NCBI GenBank assembly: GCA_026929865.2
Contig: CM049414.1
Coordinates: 4,737,501 to 4,801,500 of the forward strand
Reading direction: 5' to 3'
DNA from: Hyperoplus lanceolatus
Lineage: Eukaryota; Chordata; Actinopteri; Uranoscopiformes; Ammodytidae
Length of the DNA: 64,000 nt
In this document: positions 15,180 to 57,772 of the stretch, one piece after another
Position numbering within the stretch: position 1 is the stretch's first letter
Layout of the letters: each line of letters starts with the position of its first letter
The notes under the pieces: generated by a model
The model's input: the letters and a program-made list of their open reading frames with translations, nothing else
What the model was told of the DNA's origin: nothing
Database searches by the model: none
Position numbers and translations under genes: made by a program

Positions 15180-15352
15180 TGACTGTTCGATCCTAGGATC
15201 TGTTCACACCACTGTGAAGGTTAACCGCTGTGGGCTATGAATGCTTTTAAAGTGGAGCTGTCAACCGGAGGAACAACTCGTAACCGAGCGAGACTCAGTT
15301 CTGCAATTACTTTGGCTCTCTTGACGATTGGGAAAATGAGACTAGTGATGGC

Positions 15353-16051
15353 ATGGAGGCCATAGCGCAACAGCTGAAGGCAATCAATGGGAAAATTGAC
15401 TGCATGCAACAATCCGTGGAGAAGACGATTGAGGAGAAAATAAAGGGAATGAATATATCCCTGGAAAAACAATTAAATAGTCAAATTGACAGACTACGAA
15501 GTTCTTTAACTAAGCTGGCCGACGAAAACAGGGATGATTTGAAAGCAGAGATTGAGAAAAAATCTAAAGAGATTCAAGATAATATGGACTGTGAGATTGG
15601 TCAGCTGAGAACGAGAATTGAAAAAATGGAATCAAGCCTGCATTTGACTAAAATAAAGCAACCCAAATTTAACCCGGAGGTTTCCATCATGGTCACGGGG
15701 TTACCGTTCAGGGATGGAGAAATCGCTTTGGAGAGGGTGAAGTCGCTACTGTCGGACGGAATGCTGTGTGACCCGATGCCAGAGGTGGTGGCTGCGGAAC
15801 GTCTTCTGCCGAGGGGCCGTGGACCGGGGTTGATTAAAGTGGAGTTCGGCACGGTCCAAGACAAAGTTTCGGTTCTACGTCGGAAGCAGAAGTTAAAGGA
15901 AAGTGAAACATACGGCACAGTGTATCTGCGCTCAGCCAAATCTCATGCAGAGCGTTTAATTGATCTTAACTTCAGAACCATTCTGGCTGAGATGCCATCA
16001 GGAAAAGACTTTTTCGTGACTGGTAATGGACGAGTGATCAAGCGGGATTAG
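15353..16051 (+). CDS. LINE ORF1 protein, coiled coil plus RNA-binding-like domain
   Basis: An intact frame of 232 codons begins at the ATG in MEAIAQQLKAINGKIDCMQQ. Residues about 1-100 form a long, charged heptad-rich coiled coil (many E, K, I, L, ending IEKMESSLHLTK). Residues about 105-225 look like an RRM-type RNA-binding fold, starting VSIMVTGLPFRDGEIALERV and containing a basic stretch SVLRRKQKLKE. This arrangement is typical of LINE ORF1 proteins, which trimerise and coat the element's RNA. ORF2 follows about 90-150 bases downstream. No stop or frameshift interrupts this copy, unlike ORF2. Confidence 0.8.
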   Translation: MEAIAQQLKAINGKIDCMQQSVEKTIEEKIKGMNISLEKQLNSQIDRLRSSLTKLADENRDDLKAEIEKKSKEIQDNMDCEIGQLRTRIEKMESSLHLTKIKQPKFNPEVSIMVTGLPFRDGEIALERVKSLLSDGMLCDPMPEVVAAERLLPRGRGPGLIKVEFGTVQDKVSVLRRKQKLKESETYGTVYLRSAKSHAERLIDLNFRTILAEMPSGKDFFVTGNGRVIKRD

Positions 16052-17837
16052 GATAATGAAGCAAACTCGAGGAGGAGACCGAGGCAAGAGACGGAGCATA
16101 GACCTACCTGAAAAGATGCACCGACGCTGCAGCGGACAGGGGAAACACTTTCCCTTGTACATTGGAACATTAACGGATGGACTGTACGGAACTGTGAGTT
16201 AAGAACTGTTATTTTGAACTCTAACGAAACCCACTTAAAGGGACAGGACTCCATTGATTTAGAGGGCTATGTGTGGTTTGGCAATAACAGGGTTAAGCAC
16301 GTAAAGGCCCCTAAAGGTTCTGGGGGAGTGGGATTTTGTGTACGATCTGAGTTGTTAAAAATGTATAAAATCGAGGTTTTGGACAGAGAGATGCACGGAA
16401 TCCTTGGTTTACATTTTAAACATTTGCTGTCTGATAATTGTTTTGTTGTTTTCACATGTTATCTGCCCCCAGAAATGTCTCCTTGGGGAAGGGATGCATC
16501 AGGTTTTTTTGCTCATGCTGTATATGTAAGTGGAGATTTCAATAGTAGGGTGGGTAATGTGGATGACTACCTTAAAGAGATTGACGACGTTCCATTAAGA
16601 GTTGCACTTGATGAGTATCAACACAAACATGGTGAATCTTTAATTGAATTTCTAAGGGATTCTAAAATGTGTCTTATAAATGGGAGAATATGTCCGTTGG
16701 ACGATAATTATACTTCTGTGTCAATTAAAGGCAGTGGTAGATTATGTACTGGCAGCACATAATTGTTTAGAAAACTGTATTTCATTTAAAGTGCTAACGC
16801 CAAATCAATTAGTTGAAGCCACAGGTTGCATGGAGCTTATTGGGGAACACAGTAAATTACCTGATCATTCCTTATTAAATTTGACCTTTCATGTAGGGTG
16901 TGACATGTCCAAGTCTGATTCTATTGCCGAAGTGGAAAGTAAAATATATTATAAAAGACAGATATGTAGAACACTCCGAAATGATTTCCTTTGTTCAGAG
17001 TTGAGACGTTCAGCATTATTGGAGCTTTTGAATAGGTTGGAAGTATGTCACATAAACCAAAAAGAGCTGGACTGCTGGTATGAGGATTTATGCAAAGTAC
17101 TTTATAAGGAAATGGTAAAATACACACAGGATAAATATTCTACTCCAAAGTCAAAGAAAGCTCACAAAATAAGTAAACCTTACTGGAATAAAGAGTTACA
17201 AGACCTTTGGTATGACATGCACACTTCTGAGCGACTATTTTTAAAATGTAAGGGGAATAGAGCAGATAAACAGCACTTCTTAAATAACTTTAGGATGAGG
17301 CAACATGTATTTGATAAAAGATATCGGCTGTTTAAACGTAGATATGAAAGAGGTAAGGTTTTGCTTCTGGAACAGATTCAAACCTCCAATCCCCAAGGAT
17401 TCTGGAATGAGATTAATAAATTGGGACCTAGGCGGTCAAATAAAATTCCAATGGAGATATGGGGTGAAGATGGACACTTAGTAGATGATTGTGCACAGGT
17501 ACTTAACAAATGGGGAAAAGATTTTTCAGGATTATTTTCAAATGACACTGGAAGTTTTGTTGAACAATTCTATGCTAATGTCTGTGAAATAAAAAGTAGT
17601 CTAGAAGCAAAAATGCTTGGGGAAGAAATCCGAGATAATGAGGAGCTCAATGCAGAGATCTCTATATCGGAGGTCCAAAGAGTCATTAACATGGCTAAAC
17701 CCGGAAAAGCTACTGGTATAGAGGATCTTCCAAATGAAGTTTTGAAATCTCCCCAGTTGGTCCAAATGTTCCTAATATTATTTAAAAAATGTTTTGAAAC
17801 CAGTAAATTACCTTCGCTGTGGCAAAAATCTATTAAA

Positions 17838-19479
17838 AATCCTATGGTAACACTTTACAATAAGGTACACAAAATTGTAGTAGCTACTACATACCTACTA
17901 CATAGTTTTTTTTTTTGCGCTACCTATGTGTTAGGTAGCACAAAAAAAAAACCCTATGTGTTACCTACTACATAGTTTTTTTTTTTTCTACCTATGTGTT
18001 AGGTAGCACAAAAAAAAACCCTATGTGTTAGGTAGCACATAGGGGTTTTTTTTGTGCTACCTATGTGTTAGGTAGCACAAAAAAAAACCCTATGTGTTAC
18101 CTACTACATAGTTTTTTTTTTTTTGCGCTACCTATGTGTTAGGTAGCACAAAAAAAACCCTATGTGTTACCTACTACATAGTTTTTTTTTTTGCGCTACC
18201 TATGTGTTAGGTAGCACAAAAAAAAACCCTATGTGTTACCTACTACATAGTTTTTTTTTTTTTGCGCTACCTATGTGTTAGGTAGCACAAAAAAAAAACC
18301 CTATGTGTTACCTACTACATAGTTTTTTTTTTTGCGCTACCTATGTGTTAGGTAGCACAAAAAAAACCCTATGTGTTACCTACTACATAGTTTTTTTTTT
18401 GCGCTACCTATGTGTTAGGTAGCACAAAAAAAACCCTATGTGTTACCTACTACATAGTTTTTTTTTTTTTGCGCTACCTATGTGTTAGGTAGCACAAAAA
18501 AAAACCCTATGTGTTACCTACTATATAGTTTTTTTTTTTGTGCTACCTAACACATAGGTAGCGCAAAAAAAAAAACTATGTAGTAGGTAACACATAGGTT
18601 TTTTTTTGTGCTACCTAACACATAGGTAGCGCAAAAAAAAAAACTATGTAGTAGGTAACACATAGGGGTTTTTTTGTGCTAACTAACACATAGGTAGCGC
18701 AAAAAAAAAAACTATGTAGTAGGTAACACATAGGTTTTTTTTTGTGCTACCTAACACATAGGTAGCGCAAAAAAAAAAAACTATGTAGTAGGTAACACAT
18801 AGGGTTTTTTTTTTTGTGCTAACTAACACATAGGTAGCGCAAAAAAAAAAAACTATGTAGTAGACACATAGGGTTTTTTTTTTTGTGCTACCTAACACAT
18901 AGGTAGCACAAAAAAAAACCCTATGTGCTACCTAACACATAGGGGTTTTTTTTTGTGCTACCTAACACATAGGTAGCGAAAACAAAAACTATGTAGTAGG
19001 TAACACATAGGTTTTTTTTTTGTGCTACCTAACACATAGGTAGCGCAAAAAAAAAAAATGTAGTAGGTAACACAAAGGGGTTTTTTTTTTGTGCTAACTA
19101 ACACATAGGTAGCGCAAAAAAAAAAAATGTAGTAGGTAACACATAGGGTTTTTTTTTTGTGCTACCTAACACATAGGTAGCACAAAAAAAAAACCCTATG
19201 TGCTACCTAACACATAGGGTTTTTTTTTTTTGTGCTACCTAACACATAGGTAGCGCAAAAAAAAAAACTATGTAGTAGGTAACACATAGGGTTTTTTTTT
19301 TGTGCTACCTAACACATAGGTAGCACACAAAAAAAAAACCCTATGTGCTACCTAACACATAGGGGTTTTTTTTTTGTGCTACTTAACACATAGGTAGCGC
19401 AAAAAAAAAAACTATGTAGTAGGTATGTAGTAGCTACTACAATTTTGTGTACCTTATTGTAAAGTGTTACCAATCCTAT
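17838..19479. mobile_element. 1.6-kb fold-back element with opposed tandem arrays, inside the LINE
   Basis: The element spans 17,846-19,471 and is flanked by the direct repeat AATCCTAT (17,838-17,845 and 19,472-19,479). Removing one copy restores the LINE ORF2 frame (…KNPIPKSQKDD…). The ends GGTAACACTTTACAATAAGG and CCTTATTGTAAAGTGTTACC continue as near-perfect inverted repeats for about 60 bp up to CTACTACATAG. The interior is a unit of about 66-70 bp made of CTACTACATAG, a T tract (8-12), GCGCTACCTATGTGTTAGGT, AGCAC, an A tract (7-9) and CCCTATGTGTTAC. It occurs about nine times in one orientation to about 18,530, then about ten times inverted. No coding capacity. The 8-bp duplication suggests mobilisation by an hAT-type transposase. 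Confidence 0.92.
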
Positions 19480-20760
19480 TCCAAAATCCCAGAAGGATGA
19501 CCCTAGAGTGCCCCTTAATTACAGAGGTATCAGTCTAATGAGCACAGTCTATAAACTATACTCCACTCTGCTTAATGATAGGTTAACAACTTTTTTGGAG
19601 AAAGGAAACTTACTGGTTGAGGAACAGAATGGGTTCCGTAAGGAAAGGGCCTGTATTGATCATATTTACACAGTGTGTACAATAGTACGAAATAGATTGC
19701 ATGAGAATTGTTACATTGATTTTCAGAAAGCTTTTGACTAAATAAACAGAAACCTTCTTGCTTACAGGCTTATACAGAATGGTATAAATGGCAAATTTTA
19801 TCATGCAATCTGTTCCCTTTACAGTGCACCTGAGTCATGTGTGAGGGTGAATGAATTTCTTACAGACTGGTTTTTCACTTCCTCTGGTGTCAAGCAGGGA
19901 GATGCTTTATCGCCTACTCTCTTCGCTGTATATATAAATGATCTAGCCAATACAATTAAATCATTAGGATGTGGGGAACAGTTTGGAGGGGAAAACATTA
20001 GTGTACTTTTATATGCAGATGATATTATTTTGATGGCTGACTCAGAAGAAGATCTGCAAAGAATGCTCTCATGTGCAGAAGCTTGGTGCAGTAAATGGAG
20101 AATGACCATCAATGAAAAGAAAACAGAAATAATGCATTTTAGGAATCCTCGTTCTACTAGTACATTTCAATTTCATTTTGGAGAAAAAAAGCTGAACTAT
20201 ACAAAATGTTATAATACCTAGGATTATACCTGGATGAACATATGCATTTCACAAAGGGTACTACAGTTCTCTCTGAGTCAGCCAGCAGAGCTCTTGGTGG
20301 AGTTATAGGCAAAACTAAGATGCTGAAGGATATTGGTTTTTCTACATACACCAAACTTTTCCAGGCTTGTGTGTGTCCTGTGTTGGATTATGTGGCAGGG
20401 GTCTGGGGTTATAAAAACTTCCCCGGGAGTGAAAAAATCCAAAACAGGGCCATCCGATATTTTATGGGTGTTCATAAATTTGCACCAATACCAGCTACAA
20501 CTGGAGACATGGGGTGGGACTCCTGTAGGGAGCGTTGGAGTGTGTGTATTATGAGGTTGTGGAATAGGCTGTTGAGGATGGATGACAACAGAGTAGCCAA
20601 AAAGGTGTTTGAATGTGACATGCATAACATTGGAGGATGGGCAAGTGAGGTGTATGAATTATATGTGGGTCTGGGTTGTGGGGATGTCTTTACAGACAAA
20701 GTGTAAATTAATCTCAAAATAGGAAAATAATTGCTATCACTTGAAAAGAGAGAGACCTGT

Positions 20761-21275
20761 GCTGTGTCTGAAATCGCGCACTTCTTTACTTACACTTCCT
20801 TTTTTGAGTGCACTTTGCGCAAAACCGGAGAGTGTGCCAAAATGCAGTGCACTGTAAGTTCCTCGGTTGTGCACTCAAAACGGTCTAAAACTTGAGTGTG
20901 GAGCGATGGACACTTTCCACACTCAACAGCCGCCATCTTACCTACGTAGCGGAGAGGACGGGACACTCTAATCAAAATAGAGGAGCTTGAAGCAACTGTG
21001 GAGACGGACGCACTCTACAAAAGTTAAATTACACATTGTTTTTGTTTTTCCGCGATTTATGTTCCTGTTTTGGCTCTCGGTAACACAAGCAGAAAAAAAT
21101 ACCACAGAAGAAGAACCGTCAAAATGCAAAGTAATTTCCGTTAGGTGCGCGACGGCAGTTGGGACAGTACACTGTAGAAATGAGAGCACTGCGTCTATAA
21201 GTAAGTGTACTGTAGGGATAATAAAGTGCACTCAATGTAAGTGCACTTACCTAAGTGTGCGATTTCAGACACAGC
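20761..21275. mobile_element. MITE with CTGTGTCTGAAATCGC ends, inside the LINE
   Basis: The left end CTGTGTCTGAAATCGCGCAC is inverted at the right end as GTGTGCGATTTCAGACACAG (one small difference), enclosing about 515 bp of GC-richer sequence unrelated to the LINE. ORF2 homology stops just before it and resumes just after it at EVRGMPKLRTLCQ. The inverted similarity may include the outer GTG/CAC, so the edges are uncertain by about 3 bp. No target duplication was confirmed. The longest frame through it (20,987-21,700) fuses element and LINE sequence and is not a gene. Confidence 0.85.
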
Positions 21276-21872
21276 ACTGGATCTCTGAAGTGAGAGGTAT
21301 GCCTAAACTGCGTACTTTGTGTCAAATTAATCATCAATTTGGTACAGAGAACTATATTTTGTATAATTTGTCTAAAAGAAAGAGGTCCCTGTGTGCACAA
21401 ATTAGGTCAGGAATTCTCCCTTTACACATTGAGTCAGGCCGGTGGGTGGGCACTAGCGAGGAGAATAGGCTGTGTACTTTGTGTGAGCTTGAGGAAATTG
21501 AAAATGAAATTCATTTCATTTTTTATTGTCCGTTTTACCACGATTTGAGATTAAGTTTATTCAAGAAAGTCGATGTAAAAGAAGTTCATTATATGTGTGA
21601 TACTGATATGTTAGCTTGGCTGTTCCAATACAGAACTTTTTTAATTGCTGACTTTATTGAAAAGGCGTGGGCTAGGAGGAATATGTCTCTTTATGTTTAG
21701 TGTTTATTCGGTGCCGGATAATTTGTATTGTATTGTTTGTTTGTTTTCTGTTTCATGTTTGTACTACACGCTTTGTGTAGTTATAGCGGTGTCTTGTAAT
21801 CCTGTGTGGGATGGGCCACTTGTGTGGCATGACACGGAAATAAAAATATTATTCATTCATTCATTCATTCAA

Positions 21873-23520: not shown

Positions 23521-24113
23521 ATTACTTGGCCCAGTCTTGACGTTTCAACTTGTGTGTTTTGTTCAGTGGTGGTCGGGTTTCAGCCTTCCTTACCTTGGCC
23601 ATGTCTCTAAGCACTGAACACCTTGTACCTCCGCAGTTCTGGAATATGGCAGAACTGGAGGATAATGGGTTCCTGGTAGCTTCACGTTTGATTCTTCTCA
23701 AATCTTTGGCAGTTAATTTGCGTCTTTTTTTCTCAATACGTTTCTTGTGACCTTGTTGGCTATTTGCAACAAAACGTTTGATGGTTCTGTGCTCACGCCC
23801 CAATATCTTAGCAATTTCAAGAGTGCTGCATCCCTCTGAAAGACTTTTTACAATGTTTGACTTATCAGAGTCTGTTAAATCTCTTTTTTTAGCCCATTTT
23901 GCCTGAGAAAGAGAAACTGCCTAATAATTATGAACACCTTGATATAGAGTTGATCTCCTTAGGCCACACCCTCACTCATTACACAAATACACATCACCTG
24001 GTGTGCTTAAATCCAATAAGCACTTAGGTTTATACAGCTTGAAGTTGGGAAATATGCATAAAAACTATGATATGGCCAAAATCCTCACTTGCCTAATATT
24101 TGTGCACACAGTG
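23521..24113 (-). mobile_element. Truncated Tc1/mariner transposon (5' part, minus strand)
   Basis: The right edge ends …TGTGCACACAGTG next to TA (24,114-24,115), the classic Tc1/mariner end and target. Reading leftward on the minus strand, the sequence encodes the N-terminal helix-turn-helix part of a transposase: KRDLTDSDKSNIVKSLSEG, then CSTLEIAKILGREHRTIKRF, then a basic stretch KKRIEKKRRKLTAKDLRRIK. A start codon is not in clean frame with this protein (a slip near 23,895). Homology stops near 23,521, so the DDE catalytic half and the other inverted repeat are missing. Confidence 0.85.
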
Positions 24114-31701: not shown

Positions 31702-34700
31702 CTACTCTTCTATAGTTATTGTTGGTTTTTTAAAATAATTTAGGAAGGGGCGCCAAATTCTGTCAAATTTATTCTCGGATCCCTGGGTAGTATAACGTAT
31801 TTTCTCTAAATTCATACATGCCATAATGTCTCGAATCCAATGTGAGTGGGAAGGAGGAGCAGGATCTTTCCACTTGAGTAGGATAGCCCTACGAGCAAGT
31901 AATGAGGTGAAGGCTAGTACCCTCAGCTTCACTTTAGGTAAGCCCGAATTTGGAGCAATGCCAAAAATTGCAGTGAAAGGGTTCGGCTTAATTTGATGCT
32001 GAAGTACTTCAGAAATTGTTTGAAAAACTGATGTCCAGAACTCAGTCAAGGTGGGACACAACCAGTACATGTGAAAGAGTGATGCCGGTGCGCTCTTACA
32101 ACTATCACAGGTCGGGTCTACATCGGGGAACATACGAGCTAATTTAGTTTTAGATATGTGGATACGATGTACTACTTTAAATTGCACAAGAGCATGTCGG
32201 GCGCACATGGAGGTAGAGTGTATCCGATCCAGGACTGAATCCCACATGTGATCTGTGAAGGCAGAACCTAGGTCCTGCTCTCACAGGGTTCTTATAGCTG
32301 CTAATGAGGGGCTATGCAACTTCGAAATAAGGTTGAAAAACACAGAAATTGAGCCTTTTAATGTGGGGTTTATAGAAAGAAACAAATCGACATGATTGGC
32401 TGGCGGTTTATAAAGGAATTGGGGAATTAACTTCTGCGTAAAATGCCTGATTTGCAGAAATCGGAAAAAATTAGTCTTTTCGATACCGAAGTGTTTTGTC
32501 AAGTGAGAAAAACTAGCAAATAGATCATTGATAAATAAATCACCGATGCATTTTAAGCCTTTTTTCTGCCAGATCTTGAATGCACCATCCACCGTTGAGG
32601 GAGTAAACAAATGATTAGCTGCAATTGGGCTGAAAAGTGAAAAATTCTGCATTCCAAAATTCTTCCTAAATTGGGTCCAGATTCGAAGGGAGTGCTTAAT
32701 CACGGGACTACTGTTGGGAATAGCCGAAGAGAGTGGAAGTGCGGCGCATAAGAGGGCAGATAGAGACAATGGGCTAATAGCGCTGGACTCCATTGTTACC
32801 CAGACTGGGGCTGAGCCGTCAAGGTGAAAATGCACCCAATACACTAAAGAACGGATATTAGCAGCCCAGTAATAGTATTGGAAATTAGGGAGGGCCATTC
32901 CACCTGTTTGTTTTGGTCTTTGAAGAAAAGCTTTCCGTAACCGAGGGTGTTTACCATTCCAAATATAATTTATCATTAAAGAGTCAAGGGCCTGAAAAAA
33001 GGATTTGGGGAGAAAGATGGGGAGACATTGGAATAGATATAGGAACTTTGGGAGTAATGTCATTTTAATTGAATTTATTCTACCTATAAGAGAGAAAGCC
33101 AGAGGAGACCACTTCGATAATATTTGCTTCGCCTGATCCAATAATTTGAGGAAGTTCGATTTAAATAGGTTTTTTAAATTTCTGGTAAAACATACCCCAA
33201 GGTAACTCAGATGGTCTGTCACCACTTTGAGTGGGAGAGCTGTTTAATCAAGTTTAAGAGCTTCTTTATTAATCGGAAAGAGTTCGCTCTTACTCAAGTT
33301 AAGTTTATAGCCAGAAAACTGACTAAAGACCTCCAACACAGAAAGTGCCTCCGGTAAAGAGGTGGCTGGCTTGGCGACAAACAAAAGTAAGTCATCGGCG
33401 TATAATGATACCTTATGTTCAATTCCTTCTCTCCATATCCCCTGAATCTGTTTGTTACTGCGAATGGCAATTGCAAGTGGTTCGATTGCAATAGCAAAAA
33501 GGAGCGGGCTCAAAGGACAACCCTGCCGGGTCCCACGGTGCAGATCAAAACTACTTGAGTAACGGCTGTTTGTTAATACTGAGGCAGAAGGGCATGCATA
33601 TAATAATTTAACCCACGAAGTGAAAACAGGACCCAAACCGAATTTTTCAAGGGTGAAAAACAAATAATTCCATTCTACTCTATCAAATGCTTTTTCAGCA
33701 TCCATAGAAGCGAGGCATTCTGATTCAATATTTCTGGGGGAATATAAAATGTTCATTAGCCGGCGGATATTATAAAATGATTGGCGTCCCTTTATAAACC
33801 CAGTTTGGTCGGGGGATATGATAGAGGGGAGAACATCCTCCAATCTGTGGGCGAGAATTTTAGCAAGTATCTTCACATCCGTATTTAATAGTGAAATTGG
33901 TCGGTATGATGCACAATCTAGAGGATCTTTATCCTTTTTTAACAACAGGGAAATACAGGCCTGGTAGAACGAAGGCGGGAGTTTACCTGAGTCAAATGAG
34001 TCTGAGAATACTGAACATAAAAAAGGCGACAATTCGGCTGAGAATTTCTTGAAAAATTCAGATGGAAGTCCGTCTGGACCAGGAGATTTGCCTGATTGCA
34101 TAGATGTTATTGCTGCAATAATTTCCTTCTGAGTAATAGGTGCCTCAAGGCTATGTCTCAGGTCTTGAGAAAGGGAAGGTATGTTTAGGTTACTGAAAAA
34201 GGTTTCCATCACCGTTGCGTCTACTGTACAATCAGAACTATACAAATTTGAATAGACTGTTTTGAACTTTTCGTTTATCAATTTCTGATCTGATGTTGTA
34301 CACCCACTGTCTGTCCGTATTCCAGGGATGAGTTGCTTCGCTCTAAATCCGCGCAGTTGATTGGCCAGGAGTTTACCAATCTTGTCACCATGCTCGTAAA
34401 AAGTACTTCTGCTCCTAAGCAACTGGTCAGCAACTTGACGGGAGGAAAGAAGGTTGAATTCTGTCTGAAGTTTTAAACGTTCTTTGTAAAGTTCAGATGA
34501 AGGTGAATTAGCATATTGTCTGTCTATGTTCAGAATCTGATCAGCTATTTCAGTTTGTTTCTGTTTTGTACATTTATTTTTGTATGCTGCAAATGATATA
34601 ATTTCACCTCTCAAATAGGCTTTCAGGGCTTCCCAAATTGTTGCATTGGACACATCTGGTGTTTTGTTTATACTCAAAAAAGTTTTAATATGTGTAGAGA

Positions 34701-35621
34701 TGTGTGAAAGAAAACTCTCATCTGTGAGCAACAATGGATCCAGTCTCCACTGCCTTCTTGTATACTCAACGTCAGAGAAAGCCAGTTGAAGGAGCAGAGG
34801 AGCGTGATCTGAAATCACAATACTTTCATAACTGCATGACTTTAGGTCTGACATCAATGAATTATCAACAAAAAAATAATCAATTCGGGTGTAAGTGTGG
34901 TGGACATGTGAAAAGAATGAATATTCTCTTCCTGTGGGGTATAAAAACCTGTATGGATCAGAGGGGCTATAATCAGCAAGAAATGATTTGATATAACCTG
35001 CAGATCTGCTAAGAGTGGCAGGTTTGGGGGAAGAGCGATCTAAGACTGGATCTAGAAAACAATTAAAATCCCCACCAAGAATAAGAGAATGGGAATTGAG
35101 ATCGGGGAGTTGAGAAAAAAATCTCTTAAAGAATTCTATATCATCGACGTTAGGCGCGTAGACGTTGGCCTAGATGACTGACTTATTGTAAAGTTTGCCT
35201 GAAACAATAATAAAACGTCCATTTTTATCTGATATAGGGCCAGTTTCACAGACATGGATTAAGCCTAGTCCTGGACTAAATGGAATTTTGAATGGAGATT
35301 GTCCATTGAAAGTACAATTTAGTCCAGAACTAGGCTTAATCCATGTCTGCGAAACCGGCCCATAATGTCTGATGACTCAAAAGGAATATTACTATCAATA
35401 AGGATAGCTGTGCCCCTGGCCTTAGCCCTGAAATTAGAATGAAAAAATGGTCCACGCCAGCATTTACTTAATCGCCCATGGTCAGAGTCATGTAAGTGGG
35501 TTTCTTGAAGGAAAACTATTCCAGCCCTGAGCCGTTTTAGGTGGGTTAAGACCTTACCCCTTTTCACTTTGTGATTTAGCCCCTTGACATTCCAACTAAT
35601 TAAATTAAGATTGCCCTTCAT
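31702..35621 (-). pseudogene. L1 ORF2 (endonuclease and reverse transcriptase), broken
   Basis: From the start MKGNLNLISWNVKGLNHKVK the frame runs through the endonuclease (IVFLQETHLHDSD; ANVYAPN; LILGGDFNCFLDP; TRIDYFFVDNSL; ISDHAPLLLQL). The reverse transcriptase follows (SGKSPGPDGLPSEFFKKF; YRPISLLNTDVKILAKILAH; QTGFIKGR; MDAEKAFDRVEW; GTRQGCPLSPLLFAIAIEPL; SLYADDLLLFVA), then a Cys-containing C-terminus (DVDPTCDSCKSAPASLFHMY). Stops interrupt at 35,170-35,172, 33,244-33,246 and 32,281-32,283, and a MITE lies in the endonuclease at 35,237-35,361. Apart from these the frame is continuous, so decay is slight. Confidence 0.92.
35234..35364. mobile_element. 125-bp MITE inside the L1 endonuclease
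   Basis: The element is 35,237-35,361 with ends GGGCCAGTTTCACAGACATG and CATGTCTGCGAAACCGGCCC. The inverted similarity runs about 44 bp per side (GATTAAGCCTAGTCCTGGAC / inverse). ATA flanks it on both sides (35,234-35,236 and 35,362-35,364), a 3-bp target duplication. Excising it with one ATA rejoins the ORF2 frame (SSDIISDKNGRF on the minus strand). A 3-bp duplication is compatible with PIF/Harbinger-type mobilisation, but that is inference. Confidence 0.92.
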
Positions 35622-54800: not shown

Positions 54801-57772
54801 GGAAAGAGTCATTCAAAGGTGCATGTGTGTATTGTTTTGATGCTAAAAACAGTTTTGAAATGGGATTGTTAGGTTTTGTTTCAAGAGTTTCATTTTGCCG
54901 TATAAGTTAAAAGTTTATCTCCATGTGCTTTGTGCTATTCGGCCTGTGTGTTAAGTTTTGACACAGTGGGCCAAAGTCTGCAACATGTGTGTAAGCATTC
55001 GGCAAAAACTGTAAGCTGGGTCTGGGTCCTGCTATACCCTGTTTTTTTTAATGTTGCAAAATGTGTTCATTTTTAATAACAGCATACAAGTGCATTTGAA
55101 GAGAACATTTACAATTGTAATAAATAGGGCATTTGAACATGTAGCCTACCTAATGTTTCGAGTCGTGTATTCAAGTCGAATATTAGCCTATCTGCTAATC
55201 TGCACGGCAACATAGCCAAAAACTGCTACTTTTCTATAAATTACTGAACATTTGCTAATGCTTTTGCTATTTTACATCAGTGATCCCTGTTTTTAGCTTA
55301 TTAAAATACATTATTATAACACATCCATAATGTAATTTGTAACTGACAGAAGCATTACTATGCATTGATTTAAAAAAAGAAGAAGTTTATACTGTGTACA
55401 AAGTTGTTTTGGGACATTTTGTTGAGGAAAGAAGTGAACGGGTAACCACTAAAGATGGGTCAAATCAATGCTATTAAAATTTAATTTCAGTATAAAGTTG
55501 AGTATTATAAGTGGGGTTGTATGAAGGAGCTACTAATGCATTATGTCTGTCTGTTACCTTATGAACAGACGATCAGCACAGCCATTTTAAGGAGTTTGGG
55601 GGAGACGTCACTGTAGCTGACATCACAGTAAGAGAAATGTAGGGTGAGACCATAAAACACTCTTTCTGCCTTTTCTCAGGCTAGGATGATCCGATTTCAA
55701 TTTTTTTTTGCACATTTATACTTCATAGGATCTTCGAGTTCAATACACCTTCATATTCCAACCGGTGAAGTAGGCCTTTAATGCTTACCTATAAAAAAAG
55801 AAATATCCATTCAATGTTAAATTTTGGATTTTTTCCACTGCTGAGGTCTCCCCCAAAGTCCTTTAAATGACTGCGCTGATCTCCATAAGGTAACACACTA
55901 ACTATGCATAAATGCCTCATACAACCCCACTTCAAAAATACTGAACTATCCCATAAATTGCGAGATACAGCTCAATTTAAAACAGGAAAAAGTGTTCCAC
56001 TCAGGAAAAATAATGTGATTAAAGTGTTTCTTACACAGACCTCAGTCGTTTCCTGTGTTTTTTTTTAACGTGTGCGTGCTTGTCCATTGGGTCTTTACAT
56101 GTGTGGTGTCAGAGTGAAGAGAGGAACCACTTGAATATCTCCTTGGAGCAGCGTTTTCATGAATTGGAGGTTCACTTTGCTGAATCCACCACCCTTCTGC
56201 ACCTACAGGGCACACTGATCCTAGATCTGCAGGTAAAGCCATTAGAAGTTGTGCTATTTCACATGCAGTATTTAAGGCATTCATTTATTTAAAGGTGCAC
56301 CAAGGAACTTTAATTGTATTGCAACCCCTTTGGACAAAAGTGTTTTTACATAGCCAACTGTTGTTCCTGAGTGAGCGAACCCATGACAAATGAGGACAAC
56401 ATTATAAAAATAGCATTATTTGCACTGATGGTCTTGTTTGCTGTTACATGTCATTTATGATCGTCAGAGTAAAGATGAGAATGTTTCGGAAACATAAAAA
56501 AGTTCCTCGTAGCACCTTCAAGGAACAAAACCCCCAAATGTATGTTTTTGTTGTTGATAGCTTCCTTTTTTTCTCTGTTTAGAATGAACTCCATAATGTG
56601 ACAGTTACGTTGGATAATGTGAAACAAGGCCCAGGGTGCTCCATTAACATTGCGCATCCCAACCCACTGATGAGTGCTCAGGAAGCTCTGCACCAAGGTA
56701 GGCCTACAATACACCCCCTCACAAACATACACTACATGCTGTCCTACATACCATGGTCTCCCAGCAGAGGGCGCCAAACTCCGACCGTTCATTTACTCTA
56801 TCAGTATCCTCTCTCCCATGTTGTTCCCTCAGAGGTCCAGCATGTGGGGAACTGTCCAATAGACTGTGCTTCCATCTACTACAATGGAGTAAGAAGGTCA
56901 GGTCTCTACACCATAGTGCCATCCCACGCCGGCATGGCCGTGGAGGTCTACTGCGACATGGACACGGATGGTGAGTTACACACTCAGGGCACACAAGGGT
57001 AGAAAAAGCTGGCTTAAGCTTTCAACTGAAGGTTCAGAGTTTCAATCTATTGTGTTTGCAGGCAAGCAAACTCTGCTTTGGTGTGGTTGTGACTCCAAGT
57101 AGTCTAACCCACTCCAGATTTACTGTTGTGTGCAATGGACTAGTATTCCCTTCTTTGACCAAATGGGAGCTAGTAGGATAACCCTTTACACATCACACAT
57201 GGCATACGCTTTCCCCCCATTCCGGTGTAATTGTTATTTTTTACCTCAGGTGGCGGCTGGACGGTGATCCAGCGGCGAGTTGACGGCTCGGTGAGCTTTG
57301 ACCGTAACTGGAGGGACTACAGGGAGGGCTTCGGTGACCTGTACTCAGAGTTCTGGCTGGGCAACAATCACATCCATGACCTGAGCACCCAGGGAGACTA
57401 CAGCCTGCGCATCGACCTGGAGGACTGGAGCAACCAGCACAAGCACGCCCTCTACCAGAGCTTCAGGTCCGGTGGCACACAAAAAACCCTGGAGGTCATG
57501 CCTATGTTCCCACAGGCCTATGTTTTAGGTTCAGGCATCACAGCTGGGTGGTTAGGGTTAGGGTTAGGGTTAGGGAACAGGGAGAGGTTAGACCAGTAAT
57601 GAAACACAACCAATAAAACAAACAGACACACCATTCTCTATTATACAGTAGTTTGATTACCTAAAAATGTGGGACCAACGGGCTGTGGGAACATAAACAC
57701 GCTCCCCAAAAACCACCACCATGCATTAACACGCACAGCCATCTGTCTCTCTTGCATGATTTCTTACTCTTC

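Follow-up and report, generated by a model that had tools for sequence, protein, structure and literature searches.

Element boundaries and insertion site

The 64-kb window (the whole stretch of DNA that was analyzed) contains a 1626 bp element composed of two opposed arrays of tandem units, closed at either end by identical inverted tips and flanked on both sides by the 8-bp direct repeat AATCCTAT. It lies within a broken LINE (non-LTR retroelement), fragments of which span about 15.3–21.7 kb of the window. Scans for ends, for open reading frames and for inverted ends place the principal features as follows.

15284–21700, plus strand: broken LINE holding the element (outer limits approximate)
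17838–17845, plus strand: target-site duplication, left copy, AATCCTAT
17846–19471, no strand assigned: whole element, 1626 bp
17846–17905, plus strand: left tip, 60 bp
17846–17933, plus strand: perfect terminal inverted repeat, left arm, 88 bp (partner 19384–19471)
19384–19471, minus strand: perfect terminal inverted repeat, right arm, 88 bp (partner 17846–17933)
19412–19471, minus strand: right tip, 60 of 60 bp identical to the left tip
19472–19479, plus strand: target-site duplication, right copy, AATCCTAT

The 8-bp direct repeat noted in a preliminary description of this DNA is exact, and the terminal inverted repeats, given there as near-perfect over about 60 bp, are better than that, with perfect inversion continuing to 88 bp. 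Comparison of the two ends shows a single mismatch in the first 109 positions (at position 89) and a register shift from position 110; the first T tract marks the inner limit of the 60-bp tips. A 16-bp perfect palindrome, TGTAGTAGCTACTACA, is present in both arms (17876–17891 in the left tip); it may be a binding site, or else a remnant left by an earlier fold-back.

We scanned the whole window for inverted ends that match exactly over 10 bp, lie no more than 4 kb apart and are bounded by exact 7–9-bp direct repeats of more than two letters. All 24 pairs recovered fall within the element, the full element being one of them, and there is no such pair elsewhere in the window. The 20-bp tip, allowing up to three mismatches, matches the window only at the two element ends and has no match in 100 shuffles. 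The element has no ORF of its own of at least 120 amino acids (one LINE frame enters its left end) and encodes no transposase.

The host LINE contains a reverse transcriptase match (Pfam RVT_1, 19742–20218, 2.8e-22) with its own stop directly after the AFD motif. By eye, its first frame has a coiled-coil look and an endonuclease-like stretch, with no Pfam match above the cut-off. Removal of exactly 1634 bp, retaining one copy of the 8-bp repeat, restores the reverse transcriptase frame: the joined flanks (17400–19741) form one frame whose sole stop is the last codon, the LINE's own, reading ...LPSLWQKSIKNPIPKSQKDDPRVPLNYRGISL... over the site and then on to the LINE stop after AFD. If the join is moved by 1 or 2 bases, even the best frame contains 4 or 8 stops. 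The translation of the joined flanks can be aligned with a second LINE (33247–35169, minus strand) over 240 columns (E 1e-16, 28% identity), and residue 149, where the flanks meet, is free of gaps. We used this alignment in place of the RVT_1 profile, which fails as proof across the join by two residues; it starts at residue 151 of the joined reading, two residues to the right, the left LINE flank alone gives no Pfam match, and the profile thus neither supports nor contradicts the join. Since the frame is restored by exact removal, the ends and the 8-bp duplication are exact and the element is younger than the LINE, which gives support for ends, duplication and insertion that is independent of the terminal repeats.

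The second LINE as a whole occupies 31702–35169 (minus strand), has long open frames with RVT_1 (2.2e-38) and Exo_endo_phos (8e-06) matches, and is L1-like by our reading. Elsewhere in the window a helix-turn-helix fragment (23525–23920, minus strand; HTH_38, 1.5e-06) probably derives from a Tc1-like transposase, and two open stretches (56583–57599, plus strand) correspond to consecutive parts of a fibrinogen C-terminal domain and are probably host-gene exons; a short GGTTAG repeat lies at 57550–57575 within this region. Long CA repeats are also present; taken with the Tc1-like fragment, the two LINEs and the fibrinogen-domain gene, they point to a fish or another vertebrate as the probable host.

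Anatomy of the repeat arrays

Collapsing A or T runs of at least 5 bases resolves the element into 45 blocks (two tips, 22 cores and 21 linkers) separated by 44 tracts of 5–13 bases, in agreement with the variable homopolymer tracts reported earlier throughout the units. The left arm reads tip, T11, core GCGCTACCTATGTGTTAGGTAGCAC, A10, linker CCCTATGTGTTACCTACTACATAG, T12, repeated for 9 units, and the right arm is this order reversed, for 13 units. As assembled there are thus 9 cores in one direction and 13 in the other; the former number was already given in the preliminary description (about nine) and the latter had been underestimated (about ten).

17906–18528, plus strand: left array, 9 units, nearly uniform
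18505–18564, no strand assigned: turning point, a left-type linker (variant CTACTATATAG) and an 11-T tract leading into a right-type core
18540–19411, minus strand: right array, 13 units, variable

Each core is a stem, CTACCTA/TAGGTAG, with a 5-base loop, and in the predicted fold of one unit pairing continues outward through the T and A tracts. This small inverted word, previously attributed to every unit, is intact in 18 of the 22 cores and differs by one base in the other four (18676, 18816, 19091 and 19376). The ~69-bp unit consists of two diverged half-units of ~34 bp that alternate and face in opposite directions, and we therefore read the half-unit as the true repeat: h1 is CTACATAG-T-GCGCTACCTA and h2 is ACACATAGGG-T-GTGCTACCTA, and h1 adjoins both tips. 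Fold-back elements are recognized by a target-site duplication at a real insertion, which here comprises AATCCTAT and the restored frame, and by long inverted repeats containing tandem repeats, which here are the 9 and 13 opposed units; dispersed copies in the host are a further mark of the class.

One DNA strand of the element is predicted to fold at -833.8 kcal/mol and to form 771 pairs, of which 662 bridge at least 80 bases; eight mononucleotide shuffles give -133 to -145 kcal/mol and four equally long stretches from elsewhere in the window give -173 to -208 kcal/mol. On these predictions a cruciform, or a long double-stranded RNA from read-through, is possible.

The two arms differ in composition as well as in length. 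Left units L4–L8 are alike after tract collapse, and the right arm contains an imperfect higher-order repeat in which a four-unit order (palindromic linker, perfect core, GTTAG core, CC linker) occurs twice.

18989–19267, minus strand: higher-order repeat copy A, units R3–R6 counted from the right tip (boundaries from block order)
18712–18988, minus strand: higher-order repeat copy B, units R7–R10, same order, not identical

Counted strictly, so that a difference of a single C is enough to define a new type, and with the final right unit consisting of only a core, the left arm has 4 whole-unit types and the right arm 11, with none common to both. The canonical core accounts for 7 of 9 left and 5 of 13 right cores, and the canonical linker for 7 of 9 left and 2 of 12 right linkers; their presence in both arms argues against complete separation. 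To a large extent each arm has changed on its own, whereas the tips match at 60 of 60 positions. The higher-order repeat and the variable A/T tracts support the earlier proposal that the arms grow by unequal exchange or slippage. The companion proposal, that the tips are kept by selection for transposase binding, is consistent with tip identity, but in a single copy recent insertion or gene conversion could also account for that identity.

These differences also bear on whether the opposed arrays might be a fold-back artefact of sequencing or assembly. Near-palindromic arrays are hard to assemble, and the unit number, which is that of the assembly, is uncertain. However, such an artefact would duplicate one arm and its flank exactly, whereas the arms here differ in number (9 and 13 units) and make-up, and a single reading frame continues from one flank to the other across the target duplication. 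On these grounds we reject the artefact and regard it as very improbable.

Overwritten half-units

At four places a half-unit appears to be replaced by its inverted neighbor.

18019–18078, plus strand: half-unit overwritten by inverted neighbor (palindromic linker, T8, perfect-stem core)
18885–18945, minus strand: half-unit overwritten by inverted neighbor
19159–19219, minus strand: half-unit overwritten by inverted neighbor
19302–19365, minus strand: half-unit overwritten by inverted neighbor

Four of the 21 linkers (18019, 18919, 19194 and 19339) are palindromic, corresponding to CCCTATGTGTTAGGTAGCACATAGGG or its reverse complement with or without one C or G, and a perfect GTGC/GCAC stem is found in only four of the 22 cores (18054, 18885, 19159 and 19302, the last with an extra AC). 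Each of the four palindromic linkers adjoins one of the four perfect-stem cores. The intervening A/T tracts measure 8, 9, 10 and 10 bases, and ordinary h1 tracts 10–13 bases (n=17, leaving out an interrupted 5-base tract at 18984). Since the units are related to one another, the corresponding statistics (Mann-Whitney p 0.001 and 1/C(22,4)) serve for description only. At these four places the whole of h1 is replaced by an inverted copy of the neighboring h2, which is the signature of palindrome-templated strand switching; homogenization of inverted-repeat arms by template switching is among the mutation mechanisms described (in the part of PMC8604942 relied on here). Between one and four events are represented, as the right-arm cases may have arisen by duplication of one event; all four cases may go back to just one or two events.

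Terminal words within the arrays

The element's terminal 8-mer, GGTAACAC, recurs in 16 of the 21 linkers, eight on each strand, such that with the two ends it occurs nine times per strand in the element, compared with six times on both strands of the rest of the window. The degenerate form GGTARCRC is present 31 and 29 times on the two strands of the element and seven times on both strands elsewhere. Chance sharing is not negligible: 51 of 5000 dinucleotide-shuffled units contain the terminal 8-mer, i.e. about 1%, before allowing for hindsight, and the wider k-mer sharing between tip and unit is a weak signal: among 2000 shuffled tips, 85 reach the observed count for 6-mers, 96 for 7-mers and 217 for 8-mers.

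With statistics this modest, the arrays may nonetheless be putative transposase-binding arrays as in Galileo. In the account of Galileo-G cited here, two of four repeats bind its transposase domain (PMC3688188); the third and fourth are without a binding site, which counts against this step. The Tetris repeats are described as having 37 bp in common with the outermost domain (PMC4079207, in part).

A competing explanation is that the element is a plain MITE in which a palindromic minisatellite expanded by chance, the arrays being neutral passengers with no role in transposition. Replication slippage alone yields variation in homopolymers and unit number, a higher-order repeat and differing arms, internal tandem repeats are known in MITEs (PMC12628747, in the portion cited), and the improbability of finding the terminal 8-mer in the units by chance is only moderate. 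It is harder to reconcile with the terminal 8-mer standing in 16 of 21 linkers, or with the symmetrical placement of the arrays, both tips bordering one type of half-unit in like orientation; internal repeats of Galileo, as reported in the cited part of PMC3688188, do bind transposase. We consider this a serious competitor, if somewhat short of an even chance.

We think it probable that the element is a fold-back (FB-like) DNA transposon that is non-autonomous and moves by cut and paste, its arrays behaving as set out below. The target-site duplication, identical tips, empty-site test and opposed arrays bear out its initial description as a fold-back element. Transposase supplied in trans would cut at the tips. 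Since hairpins can form in every unit, a strand undergoing replication or repair would slip and switch template inside the arrays, altering homopolymer lengths and causing units to be gained and lost in each arm separately; template switching would also overwrite a half-unit with the inverted copy of its neighbor. More speculatively, the GGTA(A/G)C(A/G)C words, which match the terminal 8-mer exactly or nearly, would act as secondary transposase-binding sites, and dense arrays of them may have helped the element to compete for the enzyme.

A further step, which we think unlikely but worth stating, is that the array renews itself, with some 60 putative GGTARCRC binding words in alternating orientation kept alike by strand switching of the hairpin half-units. 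If true, the palindromic unit would be a built-in homogenizing device by which a transposon's parasite retains many good binding sites.

Superfamily affiliation

An 8-bp duplication had suggested a hAT element, and the duplication length does fit; the tip and the letters of the duplication do not. The hAT terminus consensus is YARNG and Ac duplications follow nTnnnnAn. Here the tip starts GGTAACAC, i.e. with GG and not with a CAG-type terminus, and AATCCTAT has neither the T at position 2 of the Ac pattern nor the central TA of the Buster pattern nnnTAnnn, both of them weak arguments from one insertion. Where described, the hAT element Mar has CAG(G/A)GGTAGGC ends with nnnTAnnn duplications, and terminal inverted repeats of 5–27 bp are stated for hAT (PMC3517528, in part), as against the perfect 88 bp here. 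Membership of hAT is accordingly doubtful.

Merlin elements are described as having terminal 5′-GG, terminal inverted repeats of 24–462 bp, and 8- or 9-bp duplications (PMC8101967, in the part relied on), and the GG end, the 88-bp repeats and the 8-bp duplication agree with all three. These features are not specific to Merlin, however; P elements also make 8-bp duplications and Galileo makes 7-bp ones (from the cited portion of PMC4168063), and no transposase associated with the element's tips was found in the 64-kb window. We hold a Merlin affiliation only tentatively, below even chances. The visible features fit Merlin better than hAT, and since there is no transposase this is a preference, not an assignment; Merlin is characterized by an IS1016-type DDE transposase, the P superfamily by a P-type enzyme with a THAP domain, and hAT by a transposase of its own. 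An 8-bp duplication does not single out hAT.

Relationship to known elements

Fold-back elements that contain tandem repeats are already known, among them Tetris, Galileo, Tm1, Foldback4, and TU of sea urchin, a fold-back element with 8-bp duplications. The tips of the present element may resemble those of abundant fish MITEs. Tip strings have no match in open full text, and shorter strings retrieve only an unrelated paper; the family, which the preliminary description suggested may be undescribed, may already be named in Repbase or Dfam. The 64-kb window holds no second copy and no relatives in the rest of its sequence (best E 0.3 among the best 30 matches listed), and the sequence contains no Rfam family at the gathering threshold. 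The tip 20-mer has no match in viral_contigs or genome_contigs. A tip 17-mer and a degenerate core occur at 5 and 5 loci in viral_contigs, but when tip and unit are compared with these 10 loci by local BLAST, the best 15 matches cover at most 18 bp of the tip and 23 bp of the unit, and we take them as chance and not as relatives. That the element represents a mobile family is inferred from one insertion of one copy.

The comparisons that follow are with the systems as they appear in the cited parts of each source. Tetris/DAIBAM of Drosophila virilis is likewise non-autonomous, with long terminal inverted repeats made of an outermost domain and tandem repeats, a unit number that varies between alleles, and 8–10 bp duplications; unlike our element it has ~220-bp units, not termed palindromic in that account, a middle domain, terminal inverted repeats of up to 1,735 bp, and a placement in Mutator by its authors (PMC4079207). 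Galileo (P superfamily, Drosophila) has long, internally repetitive terminal inverted repeats with arms unequal in repeat number (PMC3573991), and some of its repeats bind the transposase THAP domain (PMC3688188), as ours may. It differs in having transposase-bearing relatives and, in D. willistoni, ~140-bp repeats (PMC3573991, PMC3688188, PMC4168063), as well as a 7-bp duplication (PMC4168063); this likeness is one of description.

Tm1 of root-knot nematodes (Mutator/Foldback) has composite terminal inverted repeats with a short repeat in varying number and includes MITE-like members, but its motif is ~14 bp, its duplication most commonly 9 bp, and its 7-bp terminal motifs asymmetric (PMC3169594, in part). 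Foldback4 of Drosophila melanogaster is also a non-autonomous fold-back element, comparable in size (627–2266 bp) and palindromic over much of its length, although "palindromic" there denotes long inverted ends and not a hairpin in each unit (PMC2955051, as far as cited). The Xenopus MITEs Xstir and miDNA4 are short and non-autonomous with internal repeats that vary in number, and are not described in the cited portion as two opposed arrays of hairpin units (PMC12628747). Merlin elements have 5′-GG ends and 8- or 9-bp duplications, and one family carries a 163-bp tandem repeat of 4 or 3 units (PMC8101967, in part); the present element has no transposase, and it is likened to them by features, not homology.

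The unusual feature is the unit, a hairpin in its own right in which two half-units alternate and show visible overwriting of one by the other. Among the fold-back papers listed, judged mainly by title and abstract, none presents an element made up of such half-units. It is a standing question why the ends of some transposons are long and internally repeated. With a hairpin unit composed of two traceable half-unit types, the traces of slippage, of unequal exchange and of template switching can be told apart within one element, and a family of such copies would allow these processes to be counted and compared with transposase binding.
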